DNA of 64,000 nucleotides, taken from Antitrichia curtipendula (taxonomy: Eukaryota; Streptophyta; Bryopsida; Hypnales; Leucodontaceae). The DNA lies in the NCBI GenBank assembly GCA_951230915.1, contig OX579634.1:48621570-48685569 (forward strand). Reading direction: 5' to 3'. The translations under genes were made by a program, and so were the position numbers. Within the stretch, counting starts at the first letter, position 1. Each line of letters begins with the position of its first letter. Shown one piece after another: positions 26,184 to 50,611 of the stretch. Below the pieces are notes generated by a model. That model was not told the origin of the DNA and made no database searches. It was given only the letters and a program-made list of their open reading frames with translations.

Positions 26184-26395
26184 CAGGGTTGTCTTGTCGG
26201 ACGGGTTTCCGGGTTTCGGTGACGTATTAGACGTGTCGCGTCGCGTGTCGTGTATGACATGTGTCGAATATAGGCGACAAATGCGTCGCAAAAAAATTTA
26301 GAGTTTGGAAGTTTTTTACCCCATGGTAAATGGATTTGTCCTACGTGTCTGGTTGTCCGCAGTGACGTGGAAAGACAGAACCATGTCAGCTTGGG

Positions 26396-26680
26396 CGAGT
26401 GCGGATCGGGGTAGGGCGACCGCGGGTCCAAGAACCAGGGCGACTACGGCTTCTATAAGTGGGGCCACTTCGGGTCTGTATAGGCGACTTCGGGTCCAAT
26501 GTCTATGGGCGACCGCGGGTGGAGGATGGGTTGGGCGACTTCGGGTTTCCAGTGTCTGGGCGACTGCGGGTACCCAGTGTGTGGGCGACTGCGGCTGCGT
26601 GTGTGGGGCGACTTCAGTTCCAAAGGCAACAGCGGTTGGGGGGGATTCAGGCGGCGACCGCGGGTGGCCTCAGCTGTAAT
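26396..26680. repeat. Left subterminal GGCGACC-motif array
   Basis: About eleven copies of GGCGACCGCGGGT and variants (GGCGACTTCGGGT, GGCGACTGCGGGT) with irregular spacing of roughly 15-40 bp. Read toward the left terminus, the motif appears as ACCCGCGGTCGCC. It resembles the subterminal repeats that hAT transposases bind in other elements; that role is inferred here. Confidence 0.8.
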
Positions 26681-27161
26681 TGAACATGACATCTATTAAA
26701 ATCTTCTTAAAACTACATGCTTAAAAAGCATTATATTGGCCGCTTATTCATAACGGCTTATACAATTTGCAATTTTGAATAATATACCTCATGAAATGTA
26801 GAATTCAATTCCTCTCATTTGAACGAATGCACAAAATCCAATACAAGTCCACAATAATTATTATAATTATATTAATAACTCATATATATATGGGTTAGGT
26901 CCGGGGTATACAAATGAAGTTGTAATTGCATTGCACTTCCAACTACTTTGTTATGGTCACCATTCCAATGCTTGTGAAAGTCTACACACTCCAAAAAAAT
27001 TCAAAGCTTCTTATATGTTTCTCAGCCTCACATACTTTAATATGAGGATGTACAAAAAAGTCACACATAAACTATTAATCTATTATAATCTTCATCTACA
27101 AATTTCCGATACAAAAAAACGTATGTTGAATCCTTACAATAGTACTATACTATCTCCACAT

Positions 27162-30100
27162 CTATTCACTAGGATCAAAGTCGTCATCATTTGACACTTC
27201 ATCGGCGTTGGGGTCTGTATCTTCATGCGACTCGTCCCTATTCTCGTTGTCGGTCGAGCTCTCGTTCTCATCTTCTTCTCTTGGCACTGGTACGTTTCGT
27301 ACCTCTCGTTCTACCTCTGAATTCAGATTCCGCACTTCAGTATCTACACCGGCAACGCCCTCTGTTTGCACCAGTCGTTTTGTGCGCCTCAACACGTCCG
27401 TGGTTCCATCAGTGTTGGGTGTACGGTGTCGCCCTCCTCCACTTGATTGACCGACATTTTGATTGGAACATTCCGCCCCCATGCTGAACCGTTGGACAAC
27501 TTGATTTGGACGTTTAGGATTTCTATGGACCACCTCGTGAACCCTCCTAATACGCTTCCTTCCTCCACTGTTGTGTCTACGCGTGCCCAATGATGATGCC
27601 CCTGGGGCTAACGTTGATGAAGGTTGAGTGGGTTGCGGAGCTGAGGCATGGACTTCCTCATCAATGGTCCGTGGTGGACCTCGATGCACCGGCGGCCTTG
27701 GCAGATGGGTTGGAATAGACCTTGTGACCGTAGCCACGCTCTGACTTGCTCCTCGATTTAAGGGTGCATTACGATTCAAATTCAGAATAGCTTGTAGAGG
27801 CACATCTGAATCGTACTCCACCGTTTCTGTTATTCGGGTGGTACGCGCATTCACTACTACAGGAATTGGGCACCCCTCACGTACAACCTCATCAATGTGT
27901 ACTGCCTCTTCTTCTCTTTCACTTTCCACAATAACTCATGCAGCGCTCCGGAGATTTATTGGCATGGTTGAAGACGGATGTGCTAGTACTGGAGATCTTG
28001 CAGGCTCTTCTGGTGCAGGCACTGGATTTTGTACGCCTTCGTTGTTGTCATCAAAAGTTCTTTCCCTCGGTAGCGGTGAATATGCGGTTGGAGCTTCATC
28101 CCATGCAAAGACGCGATTCCGTTCTAGTGTACGTAGGGGCTCCTGTACACCAGAATTGTTCTCATCATTACCATCTGTAAAAGTGTGGCCGTAACGTCGT
28201 CTTGGCGGGAGGTCAACAGCAGCAGGTATCATTCCAACCCAAGGATTTTCATGCAAGCGCTCTTCTTCCTCCATACGATTATCGGCAGCCCAACCAACTC
28301 TAGAAACCACGTCATCTTTGTCACCCGAAGACAATGCCTCCTTGTTCTCTTCCTCGATATCTCCATCCATTAGGTACTTATCGTAAAAAAGGGCAGGATT
28401 GTGTCCACGTTTCTCACGTTCGAGCTTGCTGTTGGCGTAAATATACACCAATGCCTCCGCCTTGGATGTGGCCAGGCGATTTCGCACTTTACTGTGTACA
28501 AACGAATACATGCTCCAATTCCTTTCGCATGAAGATGCTGAGCATGTCAAAGATAGAATTCTCTTTGCAATTTTCGGGAGAGCATTACCACCGACATGGT
28601 TCCACCACTGATGGGGCAGTAGTGTACCTTGAGTGATATCAGGAGCTTCCATCAAAGGGTCAAATGGACCTGTCTTTTCTTTGAATTCCACAAGCTCACT
28701 CATTGCCTCCATGGGTGACACTCCCAATGGCTCGCTGAGTTTTCGTATGACTCGATTCAAGGCAGATTTGGCCTCGCCATTGTTTTGAATGGTTGCTATA
28801 TCAAGCAAATATGGGTTCAATAGTGCACCTGCATAGTGCAAATCTGTGAGCATCAATTTCCAACGAGCGTCAAACTGCTTCTCGTACTTGTCTGCAATCG
28901 CGGGGTCTAGAAAAAAAGGCTCATTCCTCAACGAGTACACGTGCTCTTTCAAGCTCTGCATCACCATCAAAGCTTTGGGCATTGCCGGGATCTTCCCATC
29001 AAACACTCAAAGAGCAACGAGCACAGGCTGTACCATGTGCAGAAAATTCTCACATTTCACCCAGAACGCTTCTGAAAGAATGTTTTGTCTTGCACGCACG
29101 GCTCGTCCTTGAACTATGTATCCATTCTTCCGCTGAAACAAACTCATCTCAAAAGGCGCATACGTCTCATCCAAAATCACGTTGTGCAACGCCTGCTTGC
29201 AATCCACGAGACGATCTACCATGAGGAAGTTGCAAGCAAACCGCGTTAAGGCAGGGAGTCTCAACACCTTGTTCGGTGAATATTTCCGAAACAGAGCCAA
29301 AGTGAGCTGATATTTTTTTATGAACGTGCAAATTTTCCTACAGTCCTCCACCAATTCAGTCACCTTCTTTTCCTTTCCCCAGTCTTCCAAAAGTAAATCC
29401 AAAATGTGTGCTGCATACCCTTGTTTATACATGTGAGGGTACATTTCTTGCAACCTTGTCATGGCCCTTGTCATTACTGCGGCATTGTCCGTACATAGTT
29501 GAACAATGTTTAATGGTCCAACCTGGTCTATGTATTGTGCCATAATATCCGTGGTGTAGGCAATGTCCTTCCTCACCCCTGTGCTATCCACCGAGCCCAA
29601 AAAAACATCCCCAGCAGGACATACGAGCATCATATTCAACAAAGGACGAGTATTGGTATCAGACCATCCATCTGAACAAATAGTCGCTCCATACTGGTCA
29701 ATAGAGTTCCTCGTCCGCTGGGAGACCATGTTCTCTACAGCTGCCTTTTTCACATCTATCATTTTCGTGCGCACTGCATTGTATGATGGCGGTTGATACA
29801 CAAATCCAGCTATAGCGGTTTCCTTCACTGCATTTATAAACGCGGGATGTCGCACGACGTTAAAGGCTATGTTGGCTTCATAAAAAAAGGAAGCCCACAT
29901 TTTATCTAACTTCTGTCGAAGGGCCAATTGTAATGCTTCATCCATACTTCTTTGACGAGAAATGGAAGGCACATTCCTCCTTCTCTCCACTATCGCTGGA
30001 GTAGAATCTACTGAGTCTGGATTAGGAGTCGATGGTTCATTCGTACGACTAGGGTCCTTGGACCCTTCAAAATCCACCTCCACTTCAGGCCCAACAAGGG

Positions 30101-30437
30101 GCCCAACAACACCATCATCTGCATTGAGTGCAATCGGCGCATCGTACATTTCTTTGTAGCTCATGAATTTTGGAACAACCTCCATACAGTTCCTAAGTTT
30201 TTCCAATACGTTTGGAGGGATACGTTGATAGAGATCCTGTCTACGTGTGGCGCCAAATCCAAGGTGAGTCAATGCCCTCTTCCGTACAAATATTGTGCTC
30301 CACCCACAGAATCTGCATTTCTTTGGATACAAGGAGGCATCACCTTCAGTGCACATTATGAGCCAAGGGTCCCACTCCTTTGTGGCCCTACGTGTATCGT
30401 TAGCAGACGTTGTCCTCCCACCACCTCGGCCAGCCAT
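27162..30437 (-). pseudogene. BED/hAT transposase of the giant element, two in-frame stops
   Basis: One continuous frame of 1,092 codons from ATG 30437 is cut by TGA at 29007-29009 (codon 477) and TGA at 27936-27938 (codon 834). There is no frameshift. Visible parts in order: a BED-type zinc finger (Cys41, Cys44, His58; KKCRFCGWSTIFVRKRALTH), a hAT catalytic region (ICSDGWSDTNTRPLLNMMLV, then LCTDNAAVM, both with expected Asp residues), and the C-terminal dimerisation segment (ASSCERNWSMYSFVHSKVRN). A long acidic, low-complexity tail follows. The first stop falls in a stretch reading VAL*VFDGK and suits CGA changed to TGA. An alternative start upstream is only a TTG. This should be the source of mobility for the element, but this copy would give a truncated protein unless read through. 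Confidence 0.85.
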
Positions 30438-30664
30438 CTTGCAGATCCGCAATGGGTCTCACAGAAAAATTACTTTATCGAAAAAACCGGACCAATCAAA
30501 AGAAGTAATGACAAAGCCACCCGCCAAGAGTGGTCCTATGAACCTCTCAAAGCTAGGTTGTTGCCCTCCGAAGAACCTAAACGTCCGCATGAAGCCTCTT
30601 TAGAGGATTCAAGACAAGAGCTTTATCACCGGAGCAAGATGAGAGGCAATGGCTGCCCTTCAGG

Positions 30665-30850
30665 CTTTATAGTCCAAGAGGGGTTGTGGGTGAGGGCGAC
30701 CTTGGGTACAGAGGCGACCTCGGGTATAGGCTGAGGGGGCGACCGCGGGTCTAGTAGGACGACCGCGGGTCCCATGAAGGGCGACTTCGGGTGCCCGCCA
30801 GGCGACTGCACGTCCTTTTCTGGGGCGACCGCGACTCCAGTAGAATGCGA
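30665..30850 (-). promoter_or_regulatory. Promoter of the hAT transposase
   Basis: On the minus strand, an array of about seven GGCGACC-type motifs (30695-30840) is followed by a TATA-like ACTATAAAGCC (30665-30673), about 230 bp before the ATG. The leader contains TTGTCTTGAATCC then GGCTTCATGCGG, matching the leader of the 47359-49833 gene (TTGTCTTGTATCC...GGCTGCATGCGTG). Confidence 0.6.
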
Positions 30851-30869
30851 CCATGGTCCATGGGTAAGC

Positions 30870-31715
30870 ATGTGTGCAATTTTTTTTTTCTTTTTAGGGC
30901 CGCTTGTGGAGCTTTGTGGATATATAATTTTTATTTCAAATGGTGCCCGGGAGAAAAAGTTATGCCAAAAATAGAGTTTGGCGGGCAACACAAAAAAATC
31001 ACAAAAAGTCAAAATAGATTTCTTAAATATTTTTTCCAAAATCTATGTCTTTTTGTGTACATTTGAAGCTTTGATTCATTCTATTTGGACTAAAAATGAA
31101 AAAGTTATGGACAATCTTAGCTTTTCGGGCAATCTAAGCATCTTCTTGAAAAATTAACTTTTAGGATTCATTTTTTAATGGAATTTTTTTCAATTTTCAG
31201 AAAAAAAATGTTAGACAAGGTTGAATTTGCTTGCTAGAACAATCTCACCGTTCGGATTATGGTATTTCAATTTTGCCTTTGAGCTATTAACGATTTAGTT
31301 ATTCCTTCAATCTTGAACCTACTTCTATTTAACAATTTTTTAATGAGTGAAAATTTAGTGTTTTTTTCTTGAATTTTTTTTCCTAGATTCTCAACTGAAT
31401 TATTCAACATATAATCTTAGAAAATCAAAATCAGCAATACAAAAAATTTAAGTTAAATAGGTTCAAAGCCCATAAATCTAGTCAAGCAAGGTGCAAAAAA
31501 ACTTGTTTTCTTCACTTTGAATGCAAATATCTTGCAATCTATGTGGTCAAAGTTTCTGAAATTTCTTGCATACATTCTTATACTAGTCTAGTATAAGATC
31601 CTACGGTTAGATATGCAAAAAAAAACAATTTTTATAGTTTTTTGCTCTTTGCAATAGAAGTGGCAGTTTTAAGTGTGTTTTGATGGAAAAAAGACCTCAG
31701 GGCTTTAGGGGTTAA
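30870..31715. mobile_element. TTAA-type repeat copy next to the transposase array
   Basis: The segment matches 45402-46592 in inverted orientation (shared cues: GGTGCCCGGGAG, GATTCATTCTATTTGGAC, TCTAGTATAAGATCCTACGG) and ends at 31715 with GGGCTTTAGGGGTTAA, the family terminus. Its left boundary next to the motif array is not clear. No gene. Confidence 0.65.
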
Positions 31716-32545
31716 TCCACAAATCACCCTTAAAGTGATTTTTGGGCATTTCTTGTAGTTTTTTACTGCTGTGAATTTCATGAATTCAAATGGCATTTCT
31801 TGATCTTGAGTCTACCTAATGCTTGGCACACTTGTTACATACATTTTTTATTCCAATTGGAATATTTGAAATAATGCTAATTTTTACTATTTTATAGCAA
31901 TGTGAACTTTGGGCCTAAAAGTATGGTTTGTTATGTCTCCCATTTTAGCATGGCACGTCAACTTCGGTGTACATAATGATGTTATTAATCATAATATAAT
32001 TCTATGGTGAAAATGTAAGATATTTTGAGTATATTCTGTATGACATATGGAATTTCTTCATTATTTCCTAAAAAATGCATAGTAATTTCAAATTCTAAAA
32101 AGAAAGACACATGCTCCACGTGTAAGGGCAAAACAAAACATAACAACATCACTTATGAGTTGGAAGATTACAATGTTTGATCATAACCATGTTCAAATTT
32201 TAAACCAATTTGATATCTTTTAATTTTTTTTCCCGTGTTCTACTTGAAGAAGTGGCCTCTTTAAAGATGGTCGGTTTTAAATGGCATAACATGTTGAACT
32301 ACAATCAATTTATGTGTAATGAAATTGTAGTCCACAAATTTTGTAATTTAAATTCTGATGTGATTTTTCTCCAACCTCTAATGTACAAGAGCCCTATTTC
32401 CTAGAGCCTTATATCCAAGAGCCCTCAACAATAGAAAATCAAGATTTGAAATGGACAAATTTGCATTAAATCATGAATATCAAATACATAATCCGCGGGT
32501 ATATATACATGTTTACAAAAGCATATAGTCCTACAACAATTGCAA
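31716..32545. other. AT-rich spacer inside the giant element
   Basis: No gene is supported between the TTAA-type repeat and the 3' end of the next cargo gene. Confidence 0.4.
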
Positions 32546-34080
32546 CTAATCAAAATCATGCAATATCCTTCTTGTCCTTCTCTTCTCTTTTTTTTTTCTC
32601 TCGGATTCCAGCTCGACCATCACCTCGTTCTCTACCATCTTCAGATATGCGATGTTACGTTGCCCGAAGCTCTTAAAGTAACCTTGCCTCCAAGCTTTTC
32701 TCCACGATTTGGATAAATCAATGTGTTGGTTCAACTGATGCACGCTTCGTTGCAGTTCTCTTCCAACGAGAGACAAGTAGCTAACTTCTTCTTCAAGTCG
32801 GCTACTTCTGCTTGCGGTGTCCCATATAGCTTATCTACATCTTGGGCATCGAATTCGGAGACACGATCAAGAGGGGCCCGATCCCCGATTTCGGTCAGGT
32901 GAATTATCCTTGACCGTCCTTCCTCCACACTTCTCTTTGCAGTAATGTACCGATCTTCTTCCATCCTGCAATCTTCTATAATTTTGGAAAGCCGAGCCTT
33001 GGCTTCCTCACTGCCGCCAGCGCTAGGCCCTTCGTCTGGACCACCGGAAAATTCCCGGTAAAATGCCTCCAGGTCTGCTATCTCTCTAGCTTGCACGGCC
33101 AAACGGGTTTGCCCACTTTCAATTTTTGCTTGGAGGGTGGACACATATTCACCATCAAAAGTTTCCACAATCTTCTTTTTGTAATTTTGAAATGCTTCCT
33201 CTGTCCTTGCCAAATCTTTAAGAAGCTGATGAAGTTTCTCTTTGTAAAACTGTTTTTTGGCTTTCGTGGTATCTCGACGATAGGAACCTTCAACGTGTTC
33301 TTCCATTGCCGGTACTTCTTCCACCCAAGGCAATGCCAACAAAGGCGGCACCACCTCCTCCTCCTCTGTTTCGATCTCTCCATCCAGTCTATCAAGTGCT
33401 TCTATTTGGATGCATGCGAACACATGTTGCAATACTTCATCGTTTTCAGGATGATGAACCTGAAGTGGGGTAACATCCAATGGGATTACTTCCATTGCAT
33501 CCATAGGAGCGCCCGAGGTAAGTTCTTCATCCGAGCTTTCTTCGCTAGCTGAACTCGCATGAGTTGACCACACGTATTCTTCATCCGCCACCCCTGTTTG
33601 GATCAACTTCTTCTTTCCTAGCCCGTCCCATGGATTAGCGGAGGGACCCGCCCTCGGAATGTCTTTGGCTCTTGGAATGGTGATAAGCTTCGATGCCTTG
33701 ACGGTAGTCCAATCTACCGTTCGCGCCAAAACTAGCTCTGCATAGACCATTTGACAAATGAACAACGGGACCTCGCTCCTGACCACTGTTCGTGTGTTGT
33801 ACAAATGTCGATGCACTTCAATACAACGTTGCACAAATGTGACATCCTTGCAGTAATGTAGATTTGCAGCATTCATCTTTAGATGCAATTTGTGTCGATG
33901 AAAAGGGAATAGCTTGTCAATATGGCACCACTCCACAAACTTCTTGCAAATCACCATCGTTCAATCTCCGTTGATTCGATCCCAACCTTGAAATGCCACA
34001 GCCCCTGGATTAAGAAGGATGCGACGGTTTCTATGTTGGCTATCTCCTTTCTTCTTAATCTTTTTCGTGTTAGCGTCCAT
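32546..34080 (-). pseudogene. WCHI-family cargo protein A, stop and frameshift
   Basis: Unknown family with two paralogues in this element. ATG at 34080 (MDANTKK) starts a frame with TGA at 33961-33963 (codon 40) inside the conserved block; paralogues have Trp at about this position, so TGG to TGA or CGA to TGA are both possible. The frame continues with EWCHIDKLF, the RH-(x)2-H and YC/RC positions, and VDWTTVK. After that come an acidic linker and a long charged helical region (likely coiled coil). Near 32735-32776 the frame shifts: LATCLSL continues better as VGRELQRSVHQLNQHIDLSK in the next frame, which aligns with the end of the 42604 protein and stops at 32546. No catalytic motif. It lies downstream of its own motif array and TATA-like box. 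Confidence 0.75.
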
Positions 34081-34149
34081 CGTGGATGATTTCAACCTTG
34101 GGAACTCCACCAAAAAAAGGATAGTTCGGTGACGCAAATTTGGTAGCAA

Positions 34150-34715
34150 TTACAAGCCCCCAAATCCCAGAACACGAGCACGCATTCAGCCGCTCTGAGA
34201 CGGATGAAAGACAGTGCGCAGCGCTGGAATCGAAAGTGACGAGAATGGGAGGGGGCGACCTCTTATGTACCCGAAGTCGCCCTGGGCGAGTACGAATCCG
34301 GGCGCGTACGCAAGACAGGGCGACCGCGGGTTCAGGGCGACCGCGGATTCAGGAGGGAAGAAATTCAAGTTTTGAATTTCATGAACTTCAAGGCCTGGGC
34401 GACCGCGGGTGAGACGACTGCGGGTCCGGGAGGGAGGGAAAATTCAAGTTTCAAATTCACAGAATCCAAGTTAGGGGCGACCTCAGGTAGGGCGACCTCG
34501 GGTCCAGGAAGGAGGGAAATTCAAGTTTCAAATTCCCAGAATCCAAGGTGGGGGCGACCGCGGGTGGGGCGACTTCTTGTCCAAGAAGGAGGGAAATTCA
34601 AGTTTGAAATTCATGGAATCCAAGGCAGGGGCGACCGCGGGTGGGGCGACCTCTTGTCTAGAAAGGAGGGAAATTCAAGCTTGAAATTCATGGAATCCAA
34701 GGCATGGTGACCACG
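34150..34715 (-). promoter_or_regulatory. Promoter and motif array of WCHI gene A
   Basis: Read on the minus strand, an array of GGCGACC-type motifs, itself built of four tandem units of roughly 85 bp (34390-34710, cue GAATCCAAGGC), leads to TACATAAGAGGTCGCCC (TATA-like core 34262-34269). A leader with GCGCACTGTCTTTCATCCG and GCGGCTGAATGCGTGCTCG follows, then the ATG 189 bp on. The same leader occurs before the 39671 and 42604 genes. Confidence 0.75.
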
Positions 34716-34722
34716 GGTAGAG

Positions 34723-36359: not shown

Positions 36360-36392
36360 CAATTAAGTGTTTAATGGACAATTGTCCTTTAG

Positions 36393-36600: not shown

Positions 36601-36705
36601 TTAATTTTGTTGTTACAATTATTTTACAATTGGATTATTGTATTTTGATTTCATCTTTGAGCTATTATGATTTATATTTAATCTTGAGTCATTATTTTGT
36701 CTTGG

Positions 36706-37880
36706 TCTCAAAATTGGTCGAATGTTGTGTTGAAGGAGCGATTTCGGGTCTAGGCGACCGCAGGTAGAGGGCGACCTCGAGTGCATGTGGGTTTACTTCA
36801 TGTCTCAAAATTGGTCGAATGTTGTGTTGAAGGAGCGATTTCGGGTCTAGGCGACCGCAGATAGAGGGCGACCTCGGGTGCATGTGGGTTTACTTCATGT
36901 CTCAAAATTGGTCGAATGTTGTGTTGAAGGAGCGATTTCGGGTCTAGGCGACCGCAGGTAGAGGGCGACCTCGAGTGCATGTGGGTTTACTTCATGTCTC
37001 AAAATTGGTCGAATGTTGTGTTGAAGGAGCGATTTCGGGTCTAGGCGACCGCAGGTAGAGGGCGACCTCGAGTGCATGTGGGTTTACTTCATGTCTCAAA
37101 ATTGGTCGAATGTTGTGTTGAAGGAGCGATTTCGGGTCTAGGCGACCGCAGGTAGAGGGCGACCTCTTGTCCTGGGCGACCTCGGGTGCGTGTGGGTTTA
37201 CTTCATGTCTCAAAATTGGTCGAATGTTGTGTTGAAGGAGCGATTTCGGGTCTAGGCGACTGTAGGTAGAGGGCGACCTCTTGTCCTGGGCGACCTCGGG
37301 TGCGTGTGGGTTTACTTCATGTCTCAAAATTGGTTGAATGTTGTGTTGAAGGAGCGATTTCGGGTCTAGGCGACCGCAGGTAGAGGGCGACCTCTTGTCC
37401 TGGGCGACCTCGGGTGGGTGTGGGTTTACTTCATGTCTCAAAATTGGTCGAATGTTGTGTTGAAGGAGCGATTTTGGGTCTAGGCGACCGCAGGTACAGG
37501 GCGACCTCTTGTCCTGGGTGACCTTGGGTGGGTGTGGGTTTACTTCATGTCTCAAAATTGGTCGAATGTTGTGTTGAAGGAGCGATTTTGGGTCTAGGCG
37601 ACCGCAGATAGAGGGCGACCTCTTGCCTTGGGCAACCTCTTGTCTTAGAAGAGCTCGGGTGGGTGTGGGAGCCATTGAATGAATGGAGGAGACTTCAGGT
37701 TTTTGGTGACCTCGGGTGGGGATAGACCGTTTCTTCCTTCCCAAATGGGGGATCATTGGAGAACGCGGATCATTGCAGAACTTGAGTAGGGAGAGTCCCT
37801 TTCTGCCCAAATGAAGGAATGTAGGAGACTTCGGGTTTGGGGCGCCCGCGGGATTGGGGCGACCTCGTCTTGGTTGACCG
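36706..37880. repeat. Amplified 97/114-bp satellite carrying the GGCGACC motif
   Basis: Units start with TCTCAAAATTGGTCGAATGT at 36706, 36803, 36900, 36997 and 37094 (97 bp), then lengthen to about 114 bp from 37094 through an added GGCGACCTCTTGTCCT segment. About nine units run to 37670, followed by looser motif copies to 37880. Each unit holds AGCGATTTCGGGT, GGCGACCGCAGGT and GGCGACCTCGAGT. The motif orientation is that of a minus-strand promoter, but no gene lies to its left. The 345-codon minus-strand frame through it is only a translation of the repeat. Confidence 0.9.
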
Positions 37881-39309: not shown

Positions 39310-39600
39310 AACCCGCGGTCGCCCAAGACCCGCGGTCGGCCAGGTTCCGCGGTCGCCTGAACCCACGGTCGCCCAAGTTCGCGGTCGCCTTGGTTCCGCG
39401 GTCGCCCAAGTTCCGTGGTCGCCCTTTCCTGGAACCTGCGGTCGCCCTTTCCTGGAACCCGCAGTCGCCCCAGGGCGACTGCGAGTACTTAAGAAGTCGC
39501 CCCAACCCGCATTCTCCACTTCCGGCCTTGCGCACTGCCTTTCATCCGCCTCGAAGTGGCTGAATGCGTGCTCCTGGGCCAGGGGGTGTGAGTTGGTACG
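39310..39600 (+). promoter_or_regulatory. Promoter and motif array of the kinase-like gene
   Basis: About nine motifs of the type ACCCGCGGTCGCC lie at 39312-39480. They are followed by TACTTAAGAAGTCGCCCC (TATA-like 39486-39493), ATTCTCCACT, GCGCACTGCCTTTCATCCG and GTGGCTGAATGCGTGCTC. The ATG lies 185 bp after the TATA-like core. The leader is close to that of 42604. Confidence 0.75.
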
Positions 39601-39670
39601 GGGGGGGGAGTTTTTGCTTCTTTCAACTACGAACTTGAAGAAAGCAACGTGAGTATTTTTTCCGACCACA

Positions 39671-41254
39671 ATGGCTAATCCACAGAAAAGCAGCAGCTCA
39701 ACACGGAAATCTATTTTTGATTTAGATGATGCGGCATTGTTTGCTCTGCAGATACTTGTTAGTGAGGCAACAGGGAGTGAAGGGCAAACGAAGAGGAAGA
39801 AGAAAATCATAACGGCACATGACAAGGATTCAACCTATCCTCCTTCCAATTATGCAAACTATACATTTGAGGGTTGCCTGTCCTGGTATGCGGGAAAAAC
39901 TACACAGTTCTTGGAGGCCAATTACCTAAGGGACCCATCCCATGGCATCTTCAAATTGACTGCTGATTTGGAGGCAAGAATTTTAAGCAAGTGCAGAGCA
40001 TCGCAAGATTTTGGAGACGTGGAGGAGACGTACTTTTCCCAATACGAATTGTGGATTGAGAACACTGTAAAGACATGCATATTCAACACCAAGGAAATAA
40101 TGCTACAGATGCGACCGGAAGTGCTGGGATTTGCAGGAGATGATGAAGCCAAGGAATTCCGTGAAAAGATGGCGTGGTGGCATGAAGTTGTGAAGAAACT
40201 TTCGAAGAATCATGTGAGGGGTATGAAGTGGAAAACGGACGCATTGAAGGCGGGTTTTGCACGAGAGGCTGGCTCCACTATCACATGGATCTCTCCTCAG
40301 GCAAAAGTAATTGCCCTCACTGGATTTGACCGTCAAGGTGGGTATGGAATGGTGCGCAAGGTGCGCATTGAAGGGATGCAAACAATCCCGCCATACGTTG
40401 CTTTTGCTGGGAAAGTGCCAAAGTCAAAGAACATGCGTGAAGCAAGGGAGCAACGATCCATAGAGGCCTTGGCATGCCCCGTAAACCATCCTGGCATTAT
40501 TAAGTTTTTTGGTATTCACGCCAAAACTATGGAAGCGTACACACTGTGGTGGAATGGCGGTACATGGCTTGAAATGCGAAGATTGGATGAGAAGGTGTCA
40601 CAGAGCGTTGATTGGCATGAAATGAAGCGGGTGTGGAAACTTACAGAGGACAATCAAAAACATCTTAGCTTGTTCCGAAGGCACAAGGCGAAGTTGGCGT
40701 GGGCTTTAGTGTATGTGACACATCTCATGCACGAGTCTTTGGTGCTACACAATGACCTAAACCCTCAAAACATACTGCTGCATTTCCCCGATTATTCGGA
40801 TGAAGTAATCAACATCGGGATTTGTGATTTCGGAATTTCAAGTCGTTTTGATGAAGGAGCTCCTTCACATTATGGATATGATTCTGAGGAGAAGAAGCAG
40901 CAATCCTTATGAAGCCGTTGGTGGGTGGCTTCGGAGTTGTTTTATACGTTTGGTCCACGAAATTCCAGTACGAGTCTAGAGATTATGCAATCACAATATA
41001 AATATACAGTGCAATCAGACTCGTATTCTATTGGAAAGTTGACCGAATGGATGAATCTTCTTAATATGGTCGAATACGATACGGACTTATTCAAGAGGCG
41101 CGAGGGATCCATGTACTTTGCCATCAAGTTGGGTGAACTCACTAACCCTGATCCAAAGAAGAGACCGACATGTACTGAGGTTACAAAGTTGCTCATGGAT
41201 AAACCGTGGTACATGAAGCCCCCGGAAGTAGTTTTCCGTTACTCAATTTTGTAG
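39671..41254 (+). pseudogene. Protein-kinase-like cargo gene with one in-frame stop
   Basis: A 528-codon frame starts at ATG 39671 (MANPQKSSSS) and is broken only by TGA at 40910-40912 (codon 414), where CGA would keep the frame. The first 210 residues are unrecognised. A eukaryotic protein-kinase fold follows: Gly-rich loop GGYGMVRKV, a candidate ATP-binding Lys in VAFAGKV, catalytic loop HNDLNPQNILL (HRD changed to HND, Asp and Asn kept), CDFGIS for Mg binding, SEL in place of APE after the stop, the DxxSxG-like SDSYSIG, and KKRPT near the end. All key catalytic residues are present, so the ancestor was probably active. Ser/Thr or Tyr specificity is not clear. It lies between two TTAA-type repeats within the giant element. 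Kinases are not normal hAT genes, so this looks like captured cargo. Confidence 0.75.
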
Positions 41255-41620: not shown

Positions 41621-42208
41621 TGACCCCTAAAGTTTCGGAAGTCCCCTTGGGGGACTCTTGAAAGTTTGGGCAAGCTTCTATGAGCTCAATTTTTGGTGAA
41701 ACTTTTTGAAATTGTCTCATAAGATAGAGCAACTTATTATCTCTATGGAAATATAATTTTTACTTCAATCGGTGCCCGGGAGCAAAAGTTATGCTATAAT
41801 AACCTTAAATCGGGCAAGACCGAGTAGCCCACAAAAATCTACAAAAAGTTGAAATCATTTTTTTTTTTTCTTATGCATTATATGTTTGTCTAAATGGGAA
41901 TCTTTGATTCATTCCATTTAGATTATTGATGTGAAAGTTCTGGAGATTCTTTTTTTTTCCAGACAATGAAAGCATTTTCTTGAAAAAAAAAATTTCTTTG
42001 ACCTTGAATGCTAATAACCTTCAAATCTTCAATCCGTAAGGTCAAAAATCACAAAATTTTTACCACATGATGTGAAATAAGTGTAGTAGAAGATCCTACG
42101 TTTGGATTCTAAAAAGATATATTTGTCCTACTTCCTTAAGTGAATGCAATAGAAATGGCAGTTTCGAGCAAATTTTGATGGAAAAAAGTTGTTGAGACTT
42201 TAAGTTAA
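41621..42208. mobile_element. TTAA-type repeat copy between kinase and WCHI gene B
   Basis: The left end ACCCCTAAAGTTTCGG and right end GAGACTTTAAGTTAA frame a unit with the same internal cues as the other copies (GGTGCCCGGGAGCAAAAGTT, GATTCATTCCATTTAGAT, GTAGAAGATCCTACG). Non-coding. The motif array of the next gene begins immediately after it. Confidence 0.6.
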
Positions 42209-42224
42209 ACAAGGGGCCACTGCG

Positions 42225-42545
42225 GTCGCCCTGGACACGAGGTCGTCTGGACACGCGGTTGCCTGGACACGCAGTCGCCTGGACACGCGGTCGCCCTAGA
42301 CACGAGGTCGCCTGGACACGCGGTTGCCCTGGACACTCGGTCGCCCTGGATACGCGGTCGCCTGGTACCCACAGTCGCCCTCACCTGCCTTCGGACCCGC
42401 AGTCGCCCTCCGTACGCGCCCCAGGCAACATCGGGTATATAAGAGGTCGCCCATCACCCGCGTTCTCCACTCCTGGCTTTGCGCATTGTCTCTCATCCGC
42501 CTTGAAGTGGCTGAGTGCTTGCTCGTGAGCTAGGGGTCAGAGTTT
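42225..42545 (+). promoter_or_regulatory. Promoter and motif array of WCHI gene B
   Basis: About twelve CGCGGTCGCC-type motifs, here often preceded by CTGGACA, lie at 42225-42420. Then come TATATAAGAGGTCGCCC (TATA-like 42436-42443), GTTCTCCACTCCTGGC, GCGCATTGTCTCTCATCCG and GTGGCTGAGTGCTTGCTCG. The ATG used is 168 bp after the TATA-like core. Confidence 0.75.
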
Positions 42546-42603
42546 TGGAGGGCGTATTTTGATCATTTTGGCATCAGGGGAAGGAATATTCCTGTGTATT
42601 GCA

Positions 42604-44049
42604 ATGGAAGAGGAAGCCCAACCTTCGCCACCTGCTGTACCGAGATCAGAAGCTGGGAAAGAGTCCAAGGCGCTTCGAGGCAAGGATCGAAAAAAGAAAG
42701 GAAAAATCCACAAGAAGCACAAGGCCATCTTGATCCATCCGAAGATTAAGGCTTTCAAGGGTTGGAGAGATGAACCCACGCCTTGGACTTATAAGACGGT
42801 TCAGAAATATGTGGATTGGTGCCACATCGACAAGTTATTTCCGTTGTATCGTCACAAGTTCCACTTGAAGTCGAACAAGGTAAATCTTGCATATTGCAAG
42901 AACAGAGCCTTCCAAGAAAGATGCTGCGAGGTGTGGAAGGAACTCTATAAAGGCCTACAAACGTATCGAAACGACAATTTTTCTTTCTTTCTTGCAAGAA
43001 TGGTGTATGTTGAAGTTGTATTGAAGAAAGAGGTGGATTGGTCAAGCATTAAGGATCTTCCGATCGGGACCCATCCAGGAGAATCAAGTATTCCTTGGGC
43101 AGATGTAGCGCCGGATGTGAAGGAATCGGTGACATCGGCAAAGCCTGGGAAGTTTTTCATTTCTGATGAAAATGTAGTGTGGTCGGCGACTTCTAGCGAA
43201 GATGAACACACCCATGAATACGATGGATATTCTTTCCACAGTGACGATGACGACCTTCTCATGGAAGTCATGAACAAGGCTTTGGGTTTGGAAATGGATA
43301 GGAAGGGAAAAATGAAGGTTGACGAGCCCATCACAGAATCCCACGTTGATGTGCAAGGCATGGAAGATGCAGGGCCTATGGAAGTGGAACATGTTGTTCT
43401 AGAGCGGAACCGCAGCGTTGATGGAAGCGATTCGGAAGACGACATAGAGTTGTTGAGTGTCAAGGCGGCAAGTGTAAGATCTGCTTTGCGTGAGAAGATG
43501 AACGAACTCCGTCAATTAAATGAGAATGAACTCTCAGTACAAGTGGGTCCCGTTGTCGTAGATGATTTGAAGAAGCAGTTGGAGGGAGTAACGAAAAGCA
43601 TCCAAGAAAACGACAAGTACTTGAAGGATTTGAAAAAAAATCGCGATTTTTATTTCAGGCAGCGTGAAAGTGGAAGGGTGCACTATATGGACGAGTATGT
43701 GGTATGGCAATCAAAGCGCGATCTCCTAGAACGTGAACGTTGGATTTACGAGAATGAAAGGCGAGACCTCGATGTAGCAATAAAGAAAAAAGAAAAAGAA
43801 TATTGCATCGCCGCTGTTGAACATGAGCCAAGTACCAGTGCTGAAGAAGTGGCAAGGCTTCGTTCATTGGTGAAGCTACACTCCATGAATGCAATGGCGG
43901 TACAAGAATCGCTACGCCATTTGGAATCTGAATTTCGTTTTCACAAAGAATGGCGGAAGTTTCAGATGAGTACCATAGGAAAAATAGAGGCAGAGGTGGA
44001 CACAATGGGGCCGGGTCCCATTGAAAGCGACTTTGTTTTTAGCACTTAG
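42604..44049 (+). CDS. WCHI-family cargo protein B, intact
   Basis: This is the only fully open member: 481 aa from ATG 42604 (MEEEAQPSPP); a Met 45 bp upstream is in frame but less likely. Residues 28-42 are very basic (GKDRKKKGKIHKKHK), a possible nuclear signal. The block shared with proteins A and C covers about residues 30-150: FKGW-(x)4-P-PWT, then DWCHIDKLFPLYRHKFHLK (71-89), N-(x)2-NLAYCKN, F-(x)2-RC, and a hydrophobic stretch ending VDWSSIK. Conserved Cys73, His84, Cys98 and Cys107 could bind a metal. An acidic middle follows, and residues from about 300 on are long charged helices typical of coiled coil. I know no family with this signature. The open frame among decayed neighbours suggests younger age or selection. 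Confidence 0.8.
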   Translation: MEEEAQPSPPAVPRSEAGKESKALRGKDRKKKGKIHKKHKAILIHPKIKAFKGWRDEPTPWTYKTVQKYVDWCHIDKLFPLYRHKFHLKSNKVNLAYCKNRAFQERCCEVWKELYKGLQTYRNDNFSFFLARMVYVEVVLKKEVDWSSIKDLPIGTHPGESSIPWADVAPDVKESVTSAKPGKFFISDENVVWSATSSEDEHTHEYDGYSFHSDDDDLLMEVMNKALGLEMDRKGKMKVDEPITESHVDVQGMEDAGPMEVEHVVLERNRSVDGSDSEDDIELLSVKAASVRSALREKMNELRQLNENELSVQVGPVVVDDLKKQLEGVTKSIQENDKYLKDLKKNRDFYFRQRESGRVHYMDEYVVWQSKRDLLERERWIYENERRDLDVAIKKKEKEYCIAAVEHEPSTSAEEVARLRSLVKLHSMNAMAVQESLRHLESEFRFHKEWRKFQMSTIGKIEAEVDTMGPGPIESDFVFST

Positions 44050-45401
44050 TGGTACATATAGGAGCAGAGTGGAAATTTTACATTTTGCCCACCCTTGTTT
44101 GGGATGTTAGACTATCAGTTACCTTGAGTAAATAAATAAATATAATATTTTCTCATTCAAAAGTGTTTATATTTCTTTTTTATGGCGTGTGTATGAAAAC
44201 TTCTTAATTGGCATGTTGCCCCATATGGGGGTGAAGACATTTTATGAGAAGTGTAGAGCTCTAAATTTCAAAGGATCTATGAAACTTGAGTTGTAATGTT
44301 TGTGTTAAAAAAGAATTTTGATAACAAAATGAAGATAACTTTTATAGATATGAATTGTAATCCTTGAAGGACTATGGAGTTTAGTTTGGTATTTCTGATA
44401 ATTCTTTCATGCTCTATTGATACAATAATTTGAAATTTTGGCATGAATATTATAGGAATGATGGCACCGCACCCCCCATAATGTAGTTGTGAAAGCTTGT
44501 TTCATGTCTCCAAAAATATTGTAGACGTTAGAGCAGATTTTCAAAGATTTGCTGTGAAATTGGAGAGCGAATAAAAAAATTACCAAAAAAAATTAATTAT
44601 TTTTTTTAGATTGTTTACATTCATGGCTTGGTAGTTGGTACGGATTACCAAAAACTTGAACTGCGGAATTCCAAATGACACCGATGAAAGTTAAAATAAG
44701 GAGTTTTATTTTGCGGACCTTGAAGGAAGGAAAAGCTTATGAATTGGTCTAACTTGTCTTTTGCTCTTTTATTTGAAAATTTCCAAATTAAAAAATAAAG
44801 AATGATAACCCATAAAAGAACGTTTAGTCTCTTGATGGATAAAAAGGATTCTGTGCAAAACTCCAAATACATGTGCCTTTAATTTTGTAAATATATCTTG
44901 GAACTTTCTTGAAAAATATCTGAACATATCATCTTCTTAGAAATATATATTTTTAATTTGAATAAGTCCTAAAGAAGTAAGACTTATGCCAAAGAGTTTA
45001 AAAACCAATGAGATTAGACACTAATAGAGTATAGATATAATTGACCTAAATTTTCTTTCTTGTTTCAAATAGATTTTCTCATACATTATATTCTTTGCTA
45101 CATGAAAAGTTTTGATTAATTCTATTTTGATATTAAATGATGTGAAAGATATGGAGGATCTTGGTTTTTGGACAATCATTTTTTGGCTTGCTACCTTAGG
45201 AATTAGTGAGTTTTAATTCTATCTTGCTAATATAAGTATTAAAAAAAATTTCAAGCTCGTATGGACTTCAACTTAAAAATAATTTTGAGCATTAAAAAAA
45301 AATTGCACAAATTAATTTCATTTTCCTACACGTTGCTCTAAGTTCAGTTCTTTATTATTTGGATTCAAACCTTATAACTTAATATTGCTAGAAAACTTAA
45401 G
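44050..45401. other. AT-rich 3' region inside the giant element
   Basis: No gene is supported downstream of WCHI gene B. Confidence 0.4.
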
Positions 45402-46850
45402 TTAACCGCTGAAGTCCGAAGGCCTTATTTTCAAAAGTATCACTTCTATTGCAAGGTGGCGAAGGTGTTGACAACTTTAATTTTTTGTTCCGGCATATCT
45501 AAGTAATCATACCGTAGGATCTTTTACTAGACTAGTATATAAATGTGTAGAAGAAATTGAAAAATATTTTACCATGTTCATTGTAAGATATTTACATTTA
45601 AAGTGAAGTAAGCGATTTTTTTTATACCTTGCTTGAATATATATTTTGGCTTTGAATCATCTTAACCCCTAAAGTCCCAAAGCTATTTTCTGGCCCTAAA
45701 CCACTGAAAACCGTCATTTCTGCTGCGTTCATCCAAGAAACCAAAAAAAAAATTAAAAAAAAAATTAAACCGTAGGATCTTGTACTTCATTTGTCTAAGA
45801 TCATGTGATAAAAATTTCATCAAATTTGACCGTACGGATTGGAAGACATCAGCATTTTGTAGTTGGAAAGTAGTGTTTTTGAATGCTTTTTTTCCAATTT
45901 CAGCTGACTTTGGTCGCCATTTGGAACAAAAATTTACTCTATGGACTCCAAGTTTAAAATTTTTGTATTGAAGAATTGTGTTGAGAACTTATGAAAAAAA
46001 TTTCAAAAAATAAACACTCGATTTTCATTCTTTAAAAAATTGTTAAGTAGATGTAGGTCCAAGATTGAATAAAAAACTAAATCATTAATAGCTCCAAGGT
46101 TGTATTGAAACACAATAATTCCAACGGTGAGATTGTTCTAGCAAGAAAGAACAACCTTATCTAATGTTTTTTTTTTCAAAATTCTAAAAATTGCATTCAA
46201 AAATGAATCCTAAAAGTTATTTTTCCAAGAAAATGCTTAGATTGTCCAAAAAACAGGATTGTCCATAACTAATTCAATACTTGTCCAAATAGAATGAATC
46301 AAAGCTTCACACGTATATAGAAATTTAATATTTTAGGGAAAAAAAAAATTAAATTTTTTTTTGACTTCCTGTGATTTTTTTGGTGCTGCCCGACGAGTTT
46401 GGTTTGGGGCTTTTTGTGGTATAATTTTTGCTCCCGGGCACCAATTGAAATAAAAATTATATTCCCACGAAGATAATCAATTTTTCTTTCTTCAAAAAAA
46501 GTTTAAAAAAATCAGAACAAAAATTCAGCCTGTACGTTCCTGCCCGAAATCCCATTTGGCCCCCAAGGGGACAATGGGACTTTAGGGAGTAACTTAGAAT
46601 TTGGGCAATACTGATTTTGAATCTACTATTTTTTTATGTTGAAGAATTGAATTCAGAGTTTAGTAAATTAAAAAAAAAAAAAAACTTCATTTTCACTTGT
46701 TAAGAAGCTGTTAAGAAGAAGGAAGTTCAAGATTGAAGGAAGAACTAATGTGTTAAAAGCTCTAAGATGGAATTGAAATATAATAATTTCATTGGTGAGA
46801 TTGTTCTAGCAAGAGATCTGTGGTTCAATTTTTTTATATGTATTGTGAAC
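45402..46850. mobile_element. Nested TTAA-type elements
   Basis: An outer copy starts at 45402 (TTAACCGCTGAAGTCCGAAG) and appears to resume after 46600 (AGATTGTTCTAGCAAG near 46797). An inner copy at 45662-46592 begins TTAACCCCTAAAGTCCCA and ends TGGGACTTTAGGGAGTAA, matching inverted ends. Both share ACCGTAGGATCTT and GTTCTAGCAAG. Non-coding. Confidence 0.6.
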
Positions 46851-47358
46851 CCGTTTTCCTACTTATTCATTGAATTGCAGAAGTTACAAGACGTACGTTT
46901 TTTTTTCTATAAATGTTGGACGAATTTACTTCACCATCAATACAAGGTAGAGAAGTGTACAATTTCAATTTTAGGCACATTGAACTGGCAATTGGCTAGA
47001 ATGATGAATCACAAATTTTTGAACAATGTACTTGAATAAGTGAAGCAGAAAATAGTTTGGGTTGCATCGGTTTAGAATTAAATATTGATGATGATTTCCA
47101 AATTTTGTATGGATGGCCTCATTTTTAAACAAGAAAGGCAAGGTAGTATATATTGAAAACCAAAGCAATATAAAATTGCAGTACATAAGTATAAATTATA
47201 AAACGAAGCCACAGAAGTGGAATCGAAGAAGAAAAACAAAACTACTAAACACTGCTCGCCATTGCTAGTGTAGATATAGTATGACCATATGCTAGGGGCC
47301 TTACAACACGTATACTATTATGCAAAAAGATGTTCACGTAAACAAAGAACAAAAATGT
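46851..47358. other. Spacer downstream of WCHI gene C
   Basis: No gene supported; it lies past the 3' end of the minus-strand gene. Confidence 0.4.
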
Positions 47359-49833
47359 TTAGATGATAACATCTGTGTCGTTTTGAGAACCACTTCCTTC
47401 GCCACGTTCGTAGGTGGATGACTCCCCAACATCAAGCTTACGCTTGGCACAAGTTCGTGAAGCTGGTCCGTTCGCCTTCAAAATGGAATCCAGGACTTTG
47501 GAATTCTTTAGAGCTTCAAGGGTCTTTGTGGTCTTTGGAGAGTGTTCTTCCAACAGATAGTCGAGGGCTTGAGTTTGGTAATAAGGCCCGTATACAGAGT
47601 CTAAGTAAGACATGCTGTCCAATTCATCTATGGAGGCCGTTGCATCTTGATTGGCCACCCTCAGTCCTTGAAAATTCCAACGGTTTCCTTGTGGATGAGG
47701 ACCCCAATTGAAGGTTCCGGAGGTCTTATTGAAATATCCACCAAGGCACTGGTAGAAGAATGCCCTCCTCCCTTTGCCTTGTGGCCCTTTTCCCATCAAC
47801 TTGACTCCAACTCTGGCAATTTCTTCCGGATCTGTTTCCCAATTCAATTGGGAACTAGCAACTCCCTTTTCCAAATCATGGTTTCCTTGTCTTCAGCTCC
47901 AGAGCAAGTCTCGTCCCCACATTCTGGTGTCTTTTGTGGTATCACTGCTGTGTTCCCAAGAAGGAGGCATGTAAGTCGTCAAGTTGAACATGGTGTACAA
48001 ACGATCATGGAATGGTGCTGAACACAAAATGCAACGACGTTTAATCAAACAATGCGTGATGAGACATTGAGGATGGTACACATGTGTACATGATCCAAGT
48101 GCCTAGCCACCTTCGGGACCAAATTGCTCTAGACATATGGGACATTTGGTGTGGTCCAAAACAAAGGGTGCAGGATGTGGCCACAGTAGCTTTTTTTCCT
48201 CCACTTCGATATGGCTGGACATTTGTTTTTTGTGGTCCCAACCATTTTCTGTCCAATCAGTGTCGGTCTTTTCTGCCAAGTCCATGTTAGTGGGGAACAT
48301 GTCCTCCATCAATGCCCATGACGTGAGACCGCACTCTCGTTTAGGCTCTTGTGCAACGAAGTTTCTTGAAATTTTCTCCAATTCCTTTGCAACTTGTTGT
48401 GCTCTGTCCACTGAGAGGATACACGCGACCTTCCAATGATAGTATGTGACCCCCAACTGTGACAACCGATCTCGAAGCATTCTATTTTCTTTTTCGAGGT
48501 CCAATCTCGACTGCGACTGTACAGAATGAGGAATCACAGGAAACGAGAGTGAATCTTGGGTCTCCTGGAGATCATTTGTGGTAGTATCTTCCAGAATTGC
48601 CGTAAGAAGCGCATTTGGAGTCATTGAAGAATGCTTGGCACGCTTGGCAACAGGAGAATGGTGAAGCAAATCATCGGTGAAGTCGCCTACAACCTTGTCC
48701 AAATGATGTGAATCCGGCTCAAGAAAGGCGTCATCCATGTCCGACAAAGTAAAAGTGTCTTGTACTTTGTCTCTGAGGCGTTGCAGTTCTATAGATTGTT
48801 GAGAGAGGAGACAATTTTTGTGTGCACACTGAGATTGCAACTTCCTGACATTGCTTTGCAGCAAAGCAATGTTAATGTCCTTGGTCTTTAGGAGGTCAAG
48901 AGCCTTAGCTAGACTCATAGCGTTGTCAGTTCAAGTCACTCTAGATTGAGGGATGGAAGCACGAACAACTGCTCCCATGGGCATGTCATCGCTTGGACCA
49001 AATTTGAAGACATTGTTGGCATCTTGTGCTGGCAACGGTGGATGCGGACCTGCTACTAAAGTTGATCCTGGCCCAATTTGCGTGGTTGAACGTCGCACCT
49101 TCGGGAGGTTTTTCACTCTTTGACCTTGTGACGCTGAACGATCCTTATCATTTTCAATCTGAACTTCGGCGGGGCCCACAGTGTCTTCTTTGTCTTGTCC
49201 TATCTTTGGCTTCTGCGTACCGTCAGAATCAGGATCTTCGTTGGAATCATCACTGTGAACTTCAGTAGCTATTCTGTTTCTAGGAGCACTTCGAGTAGGC
49301 CCAAGTCCCCCGTCTGGAAAAGCCATAACACCTTTTGGTATTGATCCGCTTGTTGGACGTGCCACGTATGTAGTTTCCTTGACTGTGCTCCAATCGACCT
49401 TCTTTTGTAGGGCCACCTCAGCATATGCTCCTCTAGCGATGAAGAGAGGTACTTCATTCCTGTCTATGTTGGGAGTTTTATAAATAGCCTGCCACAATTC
49501 TATACACCTTTGAGTGAAGTCTGCATTTTCACAATGCTTCAGATTTGCCTTGTTAGTGTGACGGTTGTGATAATGGCGCCACGCCGTAAACATCTTGCTG
49601 ATGTGACACCATTCGATGTAGTCTTCGCAGGTCTGCATTGTCCATGGCTGTGGCTCCTCGTTCCACCCTTTAAAAGCAATGTGATTTTCACTATTCAATA
49701 CATGTAACCGCTTCTTATGAATGGTGCCCTTGCGCTTCCGAGTCCTGTCTTTGGCAGCCTTGCTCAGGCAACCAGGAGTGCGCGTTGTCTGAGGAAGAGG
49801 AAGTGACCCCTCAATGTTGCCTCCGGTAGCCAT
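47359..49833 (-). pseudogene. WCHI-RING fusion cargo protein C, three in-frame stops
   Basis: One 825-codon frame from ATG 49833 (MATGGNIEGS) carries TGA 48931-48933 (codon 301), TAG 48103-48105 (codon 577) and TGA 47893-47895 (codon 647), with no frameshift. The N-terminus has the shared WCHI block (KGTIHKK, FKGWNEEPQPWT, EWCHISKMF at 74-82, HCEN, QRC, VDWSTVK). The centre is helical and charged. A RING-H2 finger spans the second stop: Cys564, Cys567, Cys582, His584, His587, Cys590, Cys601, Cys604 (C3H2C3). RING-H2 proteins are usually E3 ubiquitin ligases; here that is inference. The last 170 residues are unrecognised. The two TGA codons sit where CGA, and the TAG where CAG, would be restored by one C. 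Its promoter faces it from the right end of the element. Confidence 0.78.
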
Positions 49834-49984
49834 GGAATCTCTGTACGTCGAGAACTTGCGATAACACAAGCTGGGATGAATGAAAAGTAAGAAGTAAACA
49901 TTCAACACAGGGATCACGCATGCAGCCAATAAAGGATACAAGACAAAGAGCCAAAGTGGAGAATGAAGGTGAAGAAGACCGTAC

Positions 49985-50190
49985 GGGCGCATGGATATAT
50001 AGGTGGGCGAGCACGGGTATGCTTCTTTGAGCATGTGTTCTGGGCGACTTCGGGTCCAACTTAGGAGACCGCGGGTCCAGGAGGGGGCGACTTCGGGTCC
50101 AATATGGGCGACCGCGGGTCCAGGAGGGGCGACTTCAGGTCGAATAGGGCGACTTCGGGTCCAAGAGGAGGCAACCGCGGGTCCGAGCGT
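49985..50190 (-). promoter_or_regulatory. Promoter and motif array of WCHI-RING gene C
   Basis: About six GGCGACC-type motifs at 50040-50190 face the gene. On the minus strand a TATA-like CTATATATC (49994-50002) follows, then CATTCTCCACTTTGGCTC, TTGTCTTGTATCC and GGCTGCATGCGTG, a diverged version of the leader before 39671 and 42604. The ATG is about 169 bp on. Confidence 0.7.
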
Positions 50191-50410
50191 TCGCCTCAAC
50201 CGCGGTCTCCCTTACCCGCATTCTCCCATACTTTTGTTCTCCTACCCGAGGTCGCCTCCATGTGTGTTCTCCTACCCGCGGTCGCCCTTACACGAAGTCG
50301 CCCTACTTGAGGTCGCCCTACCTGAGGTCGCCCTAACACGAAGTCGCCCTACCTAAGGTCGCCCTAACACGAAGTCGCCCCTACCCGCGGTCGCTGTGTA
50401 CCCGAAGTCG
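50190..50410. repeat. Right subterminal motif array
   Basis: About twelve ACCCGCGGTCGCC-type motifs (variants ACACGAAGTCGCC, ACCTGAGGTCGCC) point toward the right terminus. Motif direction flips at about 50190, where this array meets the back of the gene C array. Confidence 0.8.
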
Positions 50411-50611
50411 CCCGTCCACGTCACACCCGCATGCGCCCCTAAAATGTGCCACGTGGACGCCACATGGCATCCACGTAGCTTAGGTAAAAAGGGGGTAATT
50501 TTTTGAAAAGTCAAAGGTAAATTTGACTTTATGTGACGTCGCGGAGGGTCTCCTGGATGTCGCGTGACGTCTGTCTGTCGCCAGGTCGCCAGGTCGCGCA
50601 GAACAACCCTG

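Follow-up and report, generated by a model that had tools for sequence, protein, structure and literature searches.

Transposons of the hAT superfamily are among the best-studied transposons and are regarded as small. Their length is given as 2.5-5 kb (PMC3942097), and according to a 2019 review of giant transposons the efficiency of transposition falls beyond about 6 kb of cargo (PMC6431247). Polintons/Mavericks measure 15-25 kb and up to 40 kb (PMC6431247), and Teratorn, a giant element that uses the transposase of a DNA transposon, reaches 180 kb (PMC10175614). Within the hATs, the hAT7 elements of rust fungi carry a gene for a TET/JBP dioxygenase, which has been suggested to help them escape silencing (PMC12730594). 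The element described here lies in a 64,000-nucleotide stretch of the moss Antitrichia curtipendula (assembly GCA_951230915.1, contig OX579634.1, positions 48,621,570 to 48,685,569, the whole of which is called the window), and an earlier note had read positions 26184..50611 of it as a 24.4-kb hAT transposon with five genes, adding that hATs are normally a few kb long, which agrees with the published range.

It is very probable that this element is one 24.4-kb copy of a giant multi-copy hAT family, in which a transposase, a kinase and three genes with a WCHI domain (WCHI-1, WCHI-2 and WCHI-RING, the last with a RING-like finger; WCHI is the name of a motif and has no Pfam family behind it) lie between the same ends, and which likely spread by cut-and-paste of the whole block through the transposase of the family. 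The family is considered real and multi-copy because the layout of the ends recurs, the 8-bp duplications differ, and the gene order is conserved. The matching 9-bp inverted termini and the identical 8-bp duplications on both flanks, as claimed in the earlier note, were found at the exact bases, with ATCTTCAC abutting both tips of the element:

26176..26183, no strand: left target-site duplication ATCTTCAC, read directly and equal to the right copy
26184..26192, + strand: left terminal inverted repeat CAGGGTTGT, read directly; left ends across the genome start at its base 1 or 2
50603..50611, - strand: right terminal inverted repeat ACAACCCTG, read directly and from right ends across the genome
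50612..50619, no strand: right target-site duplication ATCTTCAC, read directly

The 9-mer end by itself is unremarkable (12 sites in the window with at most one mismatch, 13.4 expected), and at 9 bp the terminal inverted repeat is slightly below the 10-25 bp quoted for hATs in PMC3942097. The exact 8-bp duplication is unique to the pair 26184/50611 among the 303 combinations of CAGGG...CCCTG in the 64-kb window, for which about 0.005 such duplicated pairs would be expected with random flanks (303/65,536).

The genome (400 Mb in 303 contigs, with tallies of genes and ends that are lower bounds) contains more such pairs, for which the earlier note had proposed to search. Twenty same-strand pairs of a left and a right end, 23-78 kb apart, were found, and the bases at both ends were read for all of them: 14 have an exact 8/8 duplication, every 8-mer being different, two have a 7/8 duplication, two have exchanged duplications, and the flanks of the remaining two do not match. 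The 14 copies with exact duplications are 22.7-78.4 kb long, seven of them 22.7-24.9 kb, six 40.4-47.7 kb and one 78.4 kb. Two of these 14 depend on our reading of damaged terminal repeats: the pair on contig 3 at 5.22 Mb matches in 3/8 bases as printed and in 8/8 after assuming a 2-bp loss in the right terminal repeat, and the pair on contig 2 at 33.23 Mb matches in 8/8 if the outermost base of each repeat is counted as changed. A chance pairing of ends was considered and rejected on the exact duplications at the pairs that were read. The two exchanged cases are giant copies in opposite orientation on contig 3 (c1 and c2; 20510815-20564259 and 20593220-20632741), which lie 29 kb apart and, the satellite excepted, share 99.7% identity over 16.3 kb; TTTGCAAC stands at the right of one copy and at the left of the other, with GCTACAGA and GCTGCAGA at the remaining two ends, and an inversion by recombination between the two inverted copies would explain the exchange. 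The flanks of another copy (c3; L037, L039) read by eye like another hAT transposase gene, and giant copies may thus nest in other hATs.

The ends that were scored are the best 40 of 340 left-end and the best 40 of 372 right-end candidates; the window's left end is matched from its first or second base by all 40 left ends, 37 of the 40 right ends extend to the last base, and on the inner side left ends and right ends each have a sequence of their own. The genes between them recur at least 86 (WCHI-2), 83 (kinase), 90 (transposase) and 51 (WCHI-RING) times, the WCHI-2 matches being spread over contigs 1 to 10, which are ten large contigs. Second pieces were dropped before the neighbours were counted (one each of 86 WCHI-2, 83 kinase, 90 transposase and 41 left-end rows), and the count for WCHI-RING used all 51 rows including three second pieces. 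WCHI-2 is preceded by the kinase, on its own strand and at a distance of 2.3-6.3 kb, at 62 of 85 places, and kinase and transposase are both present at 45 of the 85; WCHI-2 adjoins WCHI-RING on the opposite strand in 37 of 51 WCHI-RING matches. Going inwards from the 40 left ends, WCHI-2 is reached within 120 kb on the same strand at 28 of them, mostly after 14.7-36.3 kb. WCHI-1, which was tallied in fetched copies, is present in the window and in all three of these copies that reach that far. Six copies were fetched (three of them as the right half only), and they are mostly 95-99% identical to the window element in the fetched parts; the similarity ends within 3 bases of the right end in all six, and two of them also have an intact left end, at which it likewise stops. 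The most divergent gene copies are found on contig 5 (about 80-94% identity, mostly 93-98% elsewhere), which is perhaps a poorly recombining chromosome, and two transposase matches (C9:449724-451133 and C7:26345431-26346840) have only 64% identity and perhaps belong to a second subfamily.

Short relatives with the same ends occur as well. In one copy (c4, L040) a 344-bp element with CAGGGTTGT/ACAACCCTG ends and its own 7/8 duplication interrupts the transposase gene, and in another (c6, L046) a 446-bp element with the same ends and its own 8/8 duplication lies between genes; the window carries the single unoccupied site for both insertions. The interiors of the two short elements look unlike the giant element by eye. 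Giant copies that end at internal CAGGGTTGT sites, an outcome which the earlier note had regarded as speaking against a single large element, were not seen in the six fetched copies, the two internal pairs being the 344-bp and 446-bp elements.

Between the ends, five genes are predicted, each in essence a single long frame. All five that the earlier note had counted were found as frames, and four of them are interrupted by in-frame stops in the window copy:

27165..30437, - strand: hAT transposase frame with DUF659 and Dimer_Tnp_hAT (Pfam); TGA at 29007-29009 and 27936-27938
32734..34080, - strand: WCHI-1 frame, a WCHI domain with a variable tail; TGA at 33961-33963
39671..41251, + strand: protein kinase frame with an N-terminal extension, 527 codons (Pfam); TGA at 40910-40912
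42604..44046, + strand: WCHI-2 gene, an open frame of 481 codons, a WCHI domain followed by long predicted helices
47362..49833, - strand: WCHI-RING (WCHI-3) frame, 824 codons from the likely start; TGA at 48931-48933, TAG at 48103-48105 and TGA at 47893-47895

That a hAT transposase is encoded inside, as the earlier note had it, is borne out by the matches to DUF659 (PF04937, E 2.5e-33, 115.3 bits with a cut-off of 34.7) and Dimer_Tnp_hAT (PF05699, E 8.8e-8, 32.3 bits with a cut-off of 21.4), and the motif-like stretches CSDGWSD, CTDNAA and SSCERNW are visible in it, which we take to resemble the D-D-E residues of hATs. The kinase of the window is a Pkinase match (E 1.6e-8), and that of an uninterrupted copy reaches 47.7 bits (cut-off 31.7). 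The RING assignment was examined with the uninterrupted frame of another copy, which scores 25.6 bits with zf-RING_11 (cut-off 27) and 24.7 bits with zf-RING_2 (cut-off 27.3). No Pfam match to a polymerase, integrase, capsid or tyrosine recombinase was found in the ten element frames scanned, nor when four of the proteins were scanned again, smaller frames being outside the scan. Among the 83 kinase matches in the genome, 24 cover the whole length and contain no stop (counted by eye), and among the 90 transposase matches two are uninterrupted over the part that matches, with listed open frames of 1098 or 1107 codons; copy c4 has a longer WCHI-1 frame of 530 codons and a WCHI-RING frame of 950 codons from stop to stop that is free of stops. 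Many genome copies have stops in their WCHI-2, kinase and WCHI-RING genes.

The same sequence motif stands at the ends and in front of every gene. There are 47 matches to the strict form GGCGAC[CT][GT]C[GA]G in the element and none in the other 39.6 kb of the window, and the mean was 0.02 across 100 first-order Markov simulations of the element. The copies cluster near both ends, in the 5' region of each gene and within a minisatellite, as follows from the strict motif and from Tandem Repeats Finder (TRF):

26415..26665, + strand: left subterminal motif array, 8 copies (strict motif; TRF)
30713..30792, + strand: array 5' of the transposase gene, 3 copies (strict motif)
34271..34642, + strand: array 5' of WCHI-1, 8 copies, 7 of them in one orientation (strict motif; TRF)
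36705..37646, no strand: minisatellite of 97/114-bp units containing the motif, 12 copies (TRF; strict motif)
39313..39471, - strand: array 5' of the kinase gene, 5 copies (strict motif; TRF)
42220..42409, - strand: array 5' of WCHI-2, 2 strict matches (TRF array 42222-42381)
50043..50414, no strand: right subterminal array, which is also the 5' region of WCHI-RING, 5 motifs oriented with the gene and then 4 in the opposite orientation towards the tip (strict motif; TRF)

The cluster at the right end thus doubles as the cluster 5' of WCHI-RING, and the motifs adjacent to genes share one orientation relative to the gene, with the exceptions of one motif 5' of WCHI-1 and the four on the tip side of the right cluster. 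Repeated subterminal motifs are a feature of hATs in general, and the arrays of the giant element are like them. The minisatellite is more than 9.6 kb long in copies c1 and c2, and its expansion therefore makes up part of their extra length; the extra sequence on the left of copy c4 is something other than the minisatellite. In the window itself, a second right end of a related element is found at 2457-2465, where GTCGCC repeats (region 2251-2465) lead up to ACAACCCTG, with TTCATATG after it, and looser GTCGC repeats are present near it, at 2.0-2.5 kb; no left end matching it was found within the window. A little to the left of the giant element, at 24317-24949, there is an AT-rich palindrome of about 630 bp with nested inverted arms, and a frame with an MlaD domain (21358-21999, - strand, E 3.8e-8) is possibly a chloroplast lipid-transfer gene of the host.

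It can be asked whether the genes other than the transposase matter to the element. In the kinase, K248, D362, N367 and D386 are invariant between the protein and the 15 of its 36 relatives that were compared; these are presumably the catalytic lysine and aspartate positions of kinases, and the protein thus seems equipped for catalysis. WCHI-1, WCHI-2, WCHI-RING and ten relatives from other sources all have the WCHI domain, these ten being taken from the 11 relatives of WCHI-2, which have 42-50% identity and of which six cover 99-100% of WCHI-2. None of the relatives of WCHI-2 was confirmed in IMG/VR contigs, and a model of the WCHI domain (mean predicted local distance difference test score 66.8, which is modest) gave no convincing match to solved structures. 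The longest contig given for a relative of WCHI-2 (P0003) has 6460 bases, as has that for a relative of the kinase (P0015), and the two perhaps lie on one contig of another species. Variants that are shared between copies, and which were taken to have arisen mostly before insertion, have ratios of nonsynonymous to synonymous changes of 0.64 in WCHI-2 (30 copies, the best-scoring of 86 matches), 0.72 in the kinase (7 copies) and 0.69 in WCHI-RING (7 copies), with a pooled one-sided p of 0.016 (uncorrected). This deficit of amino-acid changes is a weak sign that the genes matter. Among the private differences of the 30 WCHI-2 copies, 120 of 157 are C-to-T or G-to-A, an excess that would fit the decay of methylated DNA.

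Several observations weigh against a giant family that moves as a block with working accessory genes. The window copy has seven in-frame stops across four genes (two in the transposase, one each in the kinase and WCHI-1, three in WCHI-RING), with WCHI-2 alone open; it is decayed, and with two in-frame stops in its transposase it is not likely to mobilise itself. Two of the 20 pairs have unmatched flanks (contig 9 at 6.34 Mb and contig 6 at 0.886 Mb), as has a further copy (c6), and in the pair on contig 4 at 4.33 Mb, which is one of the 14, the distance from WCHI-2 to the right end is 26.9 kb, as compared with the usual 8 kb, so that this copy likely holds a further insertion. Empty sites were seen for the 344-bp and 446-bp elements, and none was recovered for a giant copy. 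No transposase, kinase or WCHI-2 (the three genes searched for) lies within 60 kb of six of the 40 left ends. The private variants have ratios of 1.00 in WCHI-2 (30 copies), 1.01 in the kinase and 1.04 in WCHI-RING, and the contrast with shared variants is not clean, the private ratio also being low, at 0.64, when WCHI-2 is counted in 7 copies (0.63 at its 5 shared sites); the private ratios are 0.78 for the transposase and 0.60 for WCHI-1 in 4 copies, with only 3 and 1 shared sites, the WCHI-1 count using the window frame, which diverges from that of copy c4 near its end. The family is described here from the sequence of one genome.

Among the other explanations, the one to be taken most seriously, although it is unlikely, is a real giant hAT whose kinase, WCHI and RING genes were taken up from the host and ride along as passengers without a role in transposition. 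The neutral-looking private variants of three gene sets (1.00-1.04) and the frequent stops in these genes among the copies are what would be expected of passengers, but the shared variants are mildly constrained (0.64-0.72), the private ones are constrained too in some sets (0.60-0.78), the same motif array precedes every gene, and WCHI-2 and the kinase have 11 and 36 relatives, two of which may even share the 6460-base contig mentioned above. That the copies spread mainly by segmental duplication is very improbable: the near identity of the neighbours c1 and c2 (99.7% over 16.3 kb) would agree with it, as would the matches on contigs 2, 3 and 5 that come in pairs of equal score, but against it stand 14 different 8-bp duplications and the loss of similarity at the borders of the element (within 3 bases on the right in the six fetched copies, and at the left end of both copies that are intact there).

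It is hardly credible that the two ends come from separate short hATs that flank a stretch of the genome and were moved with it once or a few times as a composite. Elements of 344 bp and 446 bp with the same 9-bp ends do insert here, and the six left ends without the searched genes could be read in this way, but the arrangement recurs at many sites, 14 of which have exact duplications that all differ, and the inner sides of the ends are left- or right-specific. Least credible of all is an endogenous virus or a Polinton/Maverick- or Starship-like element with borrowed hAT-like ends, for which there is a general likeness in size and in the presence of several genes and nothing specific; the ends, the duplication length and the transposase are all of hAT type, the Pfam scan of ten frames gave no polymerase, integrase, capsid or tyrosine recombinase, and IMG/VR contigs yielded no confirmed relative of WCHI-2.

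If the elements are a giant hAT family as preferred here, the transposase of the family would cut and paste the whole five-gene block, and a recent movement of the window copy would need transposase supplied by another copy. The motif at the ends and that at the promoters may be recognised by a single DNA-binding protein encoded in the element, the transposase being the likeliest and a WCHI protein the other candidate; such a protein would both join the ends and regulate all five genes. More tentatively, the kinase and the WCHI-RING protein might act on proteins of the host or of the element so as to relieve silencing or to control transposition. The WCHI proteins might, just as tentatively, be accessory subunits that bind DNA or protein. 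The earlier note had the kinase, WCHI and WCHI-RING genes move with the transposase as cargo of a giant hAT; the recurring pairs and the gene order support such a block, whereas the transposase of the window copy is interrupted, and cargo is perhaps the wrong word, as these genes may serve the element itself. It is conceivable, and proposed here tentatively, that the family is a plant counterpart, with a hAT engine, of the giant cargo elements, a self-contained mobile regulon in which end arrays recognised by the transposase are reused as promoters of the five genes. Its conserved toolkit, made up of the kinase, the WCHI proteins and the RING protein, would then counter silencing by the host or govern copying, and would thereby let an element of about ten times the usual hAT size reach dozens of copies. 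A hAT family with many copies of 23-78 kb and five genes that recur together would show that the hAT engine can carry blocks of the size of small viruses, and would be a natural system for asking how cut-and-paste transposition copes with length. It would also let one ask whether a DNA transposon encodes its own counter-silencing kinase and RING protein, and would raise the question of whether genes are carried between plants by such elements.

No giant hAT appeared among the titles and starts of abstracts listed from the open-access literature (subscription papers, preprints and Repbase being outside that scope), and the word hAT has a count of 0 in the 2019 review of giant transposons (PMC6431247). 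In size and gene number the family is comparable to the Polintons/Mavericks, which differ by their PolB and retroviral-like integrase (PMC6431247), for neither of which a match was seen in the ten frames. Teratorn differs in its content. It holds a herpesvirus genome, whereas nothing viral has been recognised in the giant hAT. With the fungal Starships the family shares giant mobile blocks with several genes beyond the mobility gene; Starships use a tyrosine recombinase, of which, as a captain, there was no Pfam match in the ten element frames (smaller frames again being outside the scan), whereas here a hAT transposase is predicted and the gene set is much the same in the copies seen. The hAT7 elements of rust fungi are likewise hATs with a gene other than the transposase, but they have 7-bp duplications and a dioxygenase (PMC12730594), and the family described here has 8-bp duplications and kinase, WCHI and RING-like genes. 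Kat1, a hAT, is reported to have repeated subterminal motifs, like the giant element. By its ends, its duplication length and the domains of its transposase, the element is a hAT element: it shares with the superfamily the 8-bp duplications, the short terminal inverted repeats, the DUF659/Dimer_Tnp_hAT transposase and the short relatives with the same ends. The 22.7-78.4 kb of the 14 copies with exact duplications lie outside the typical length, which is a usual trait of hATs and does not define membership, and what sets the family apart from other hATs is this size together with its five genes, its minisatellite and a motif of the ends that stands before every gene.

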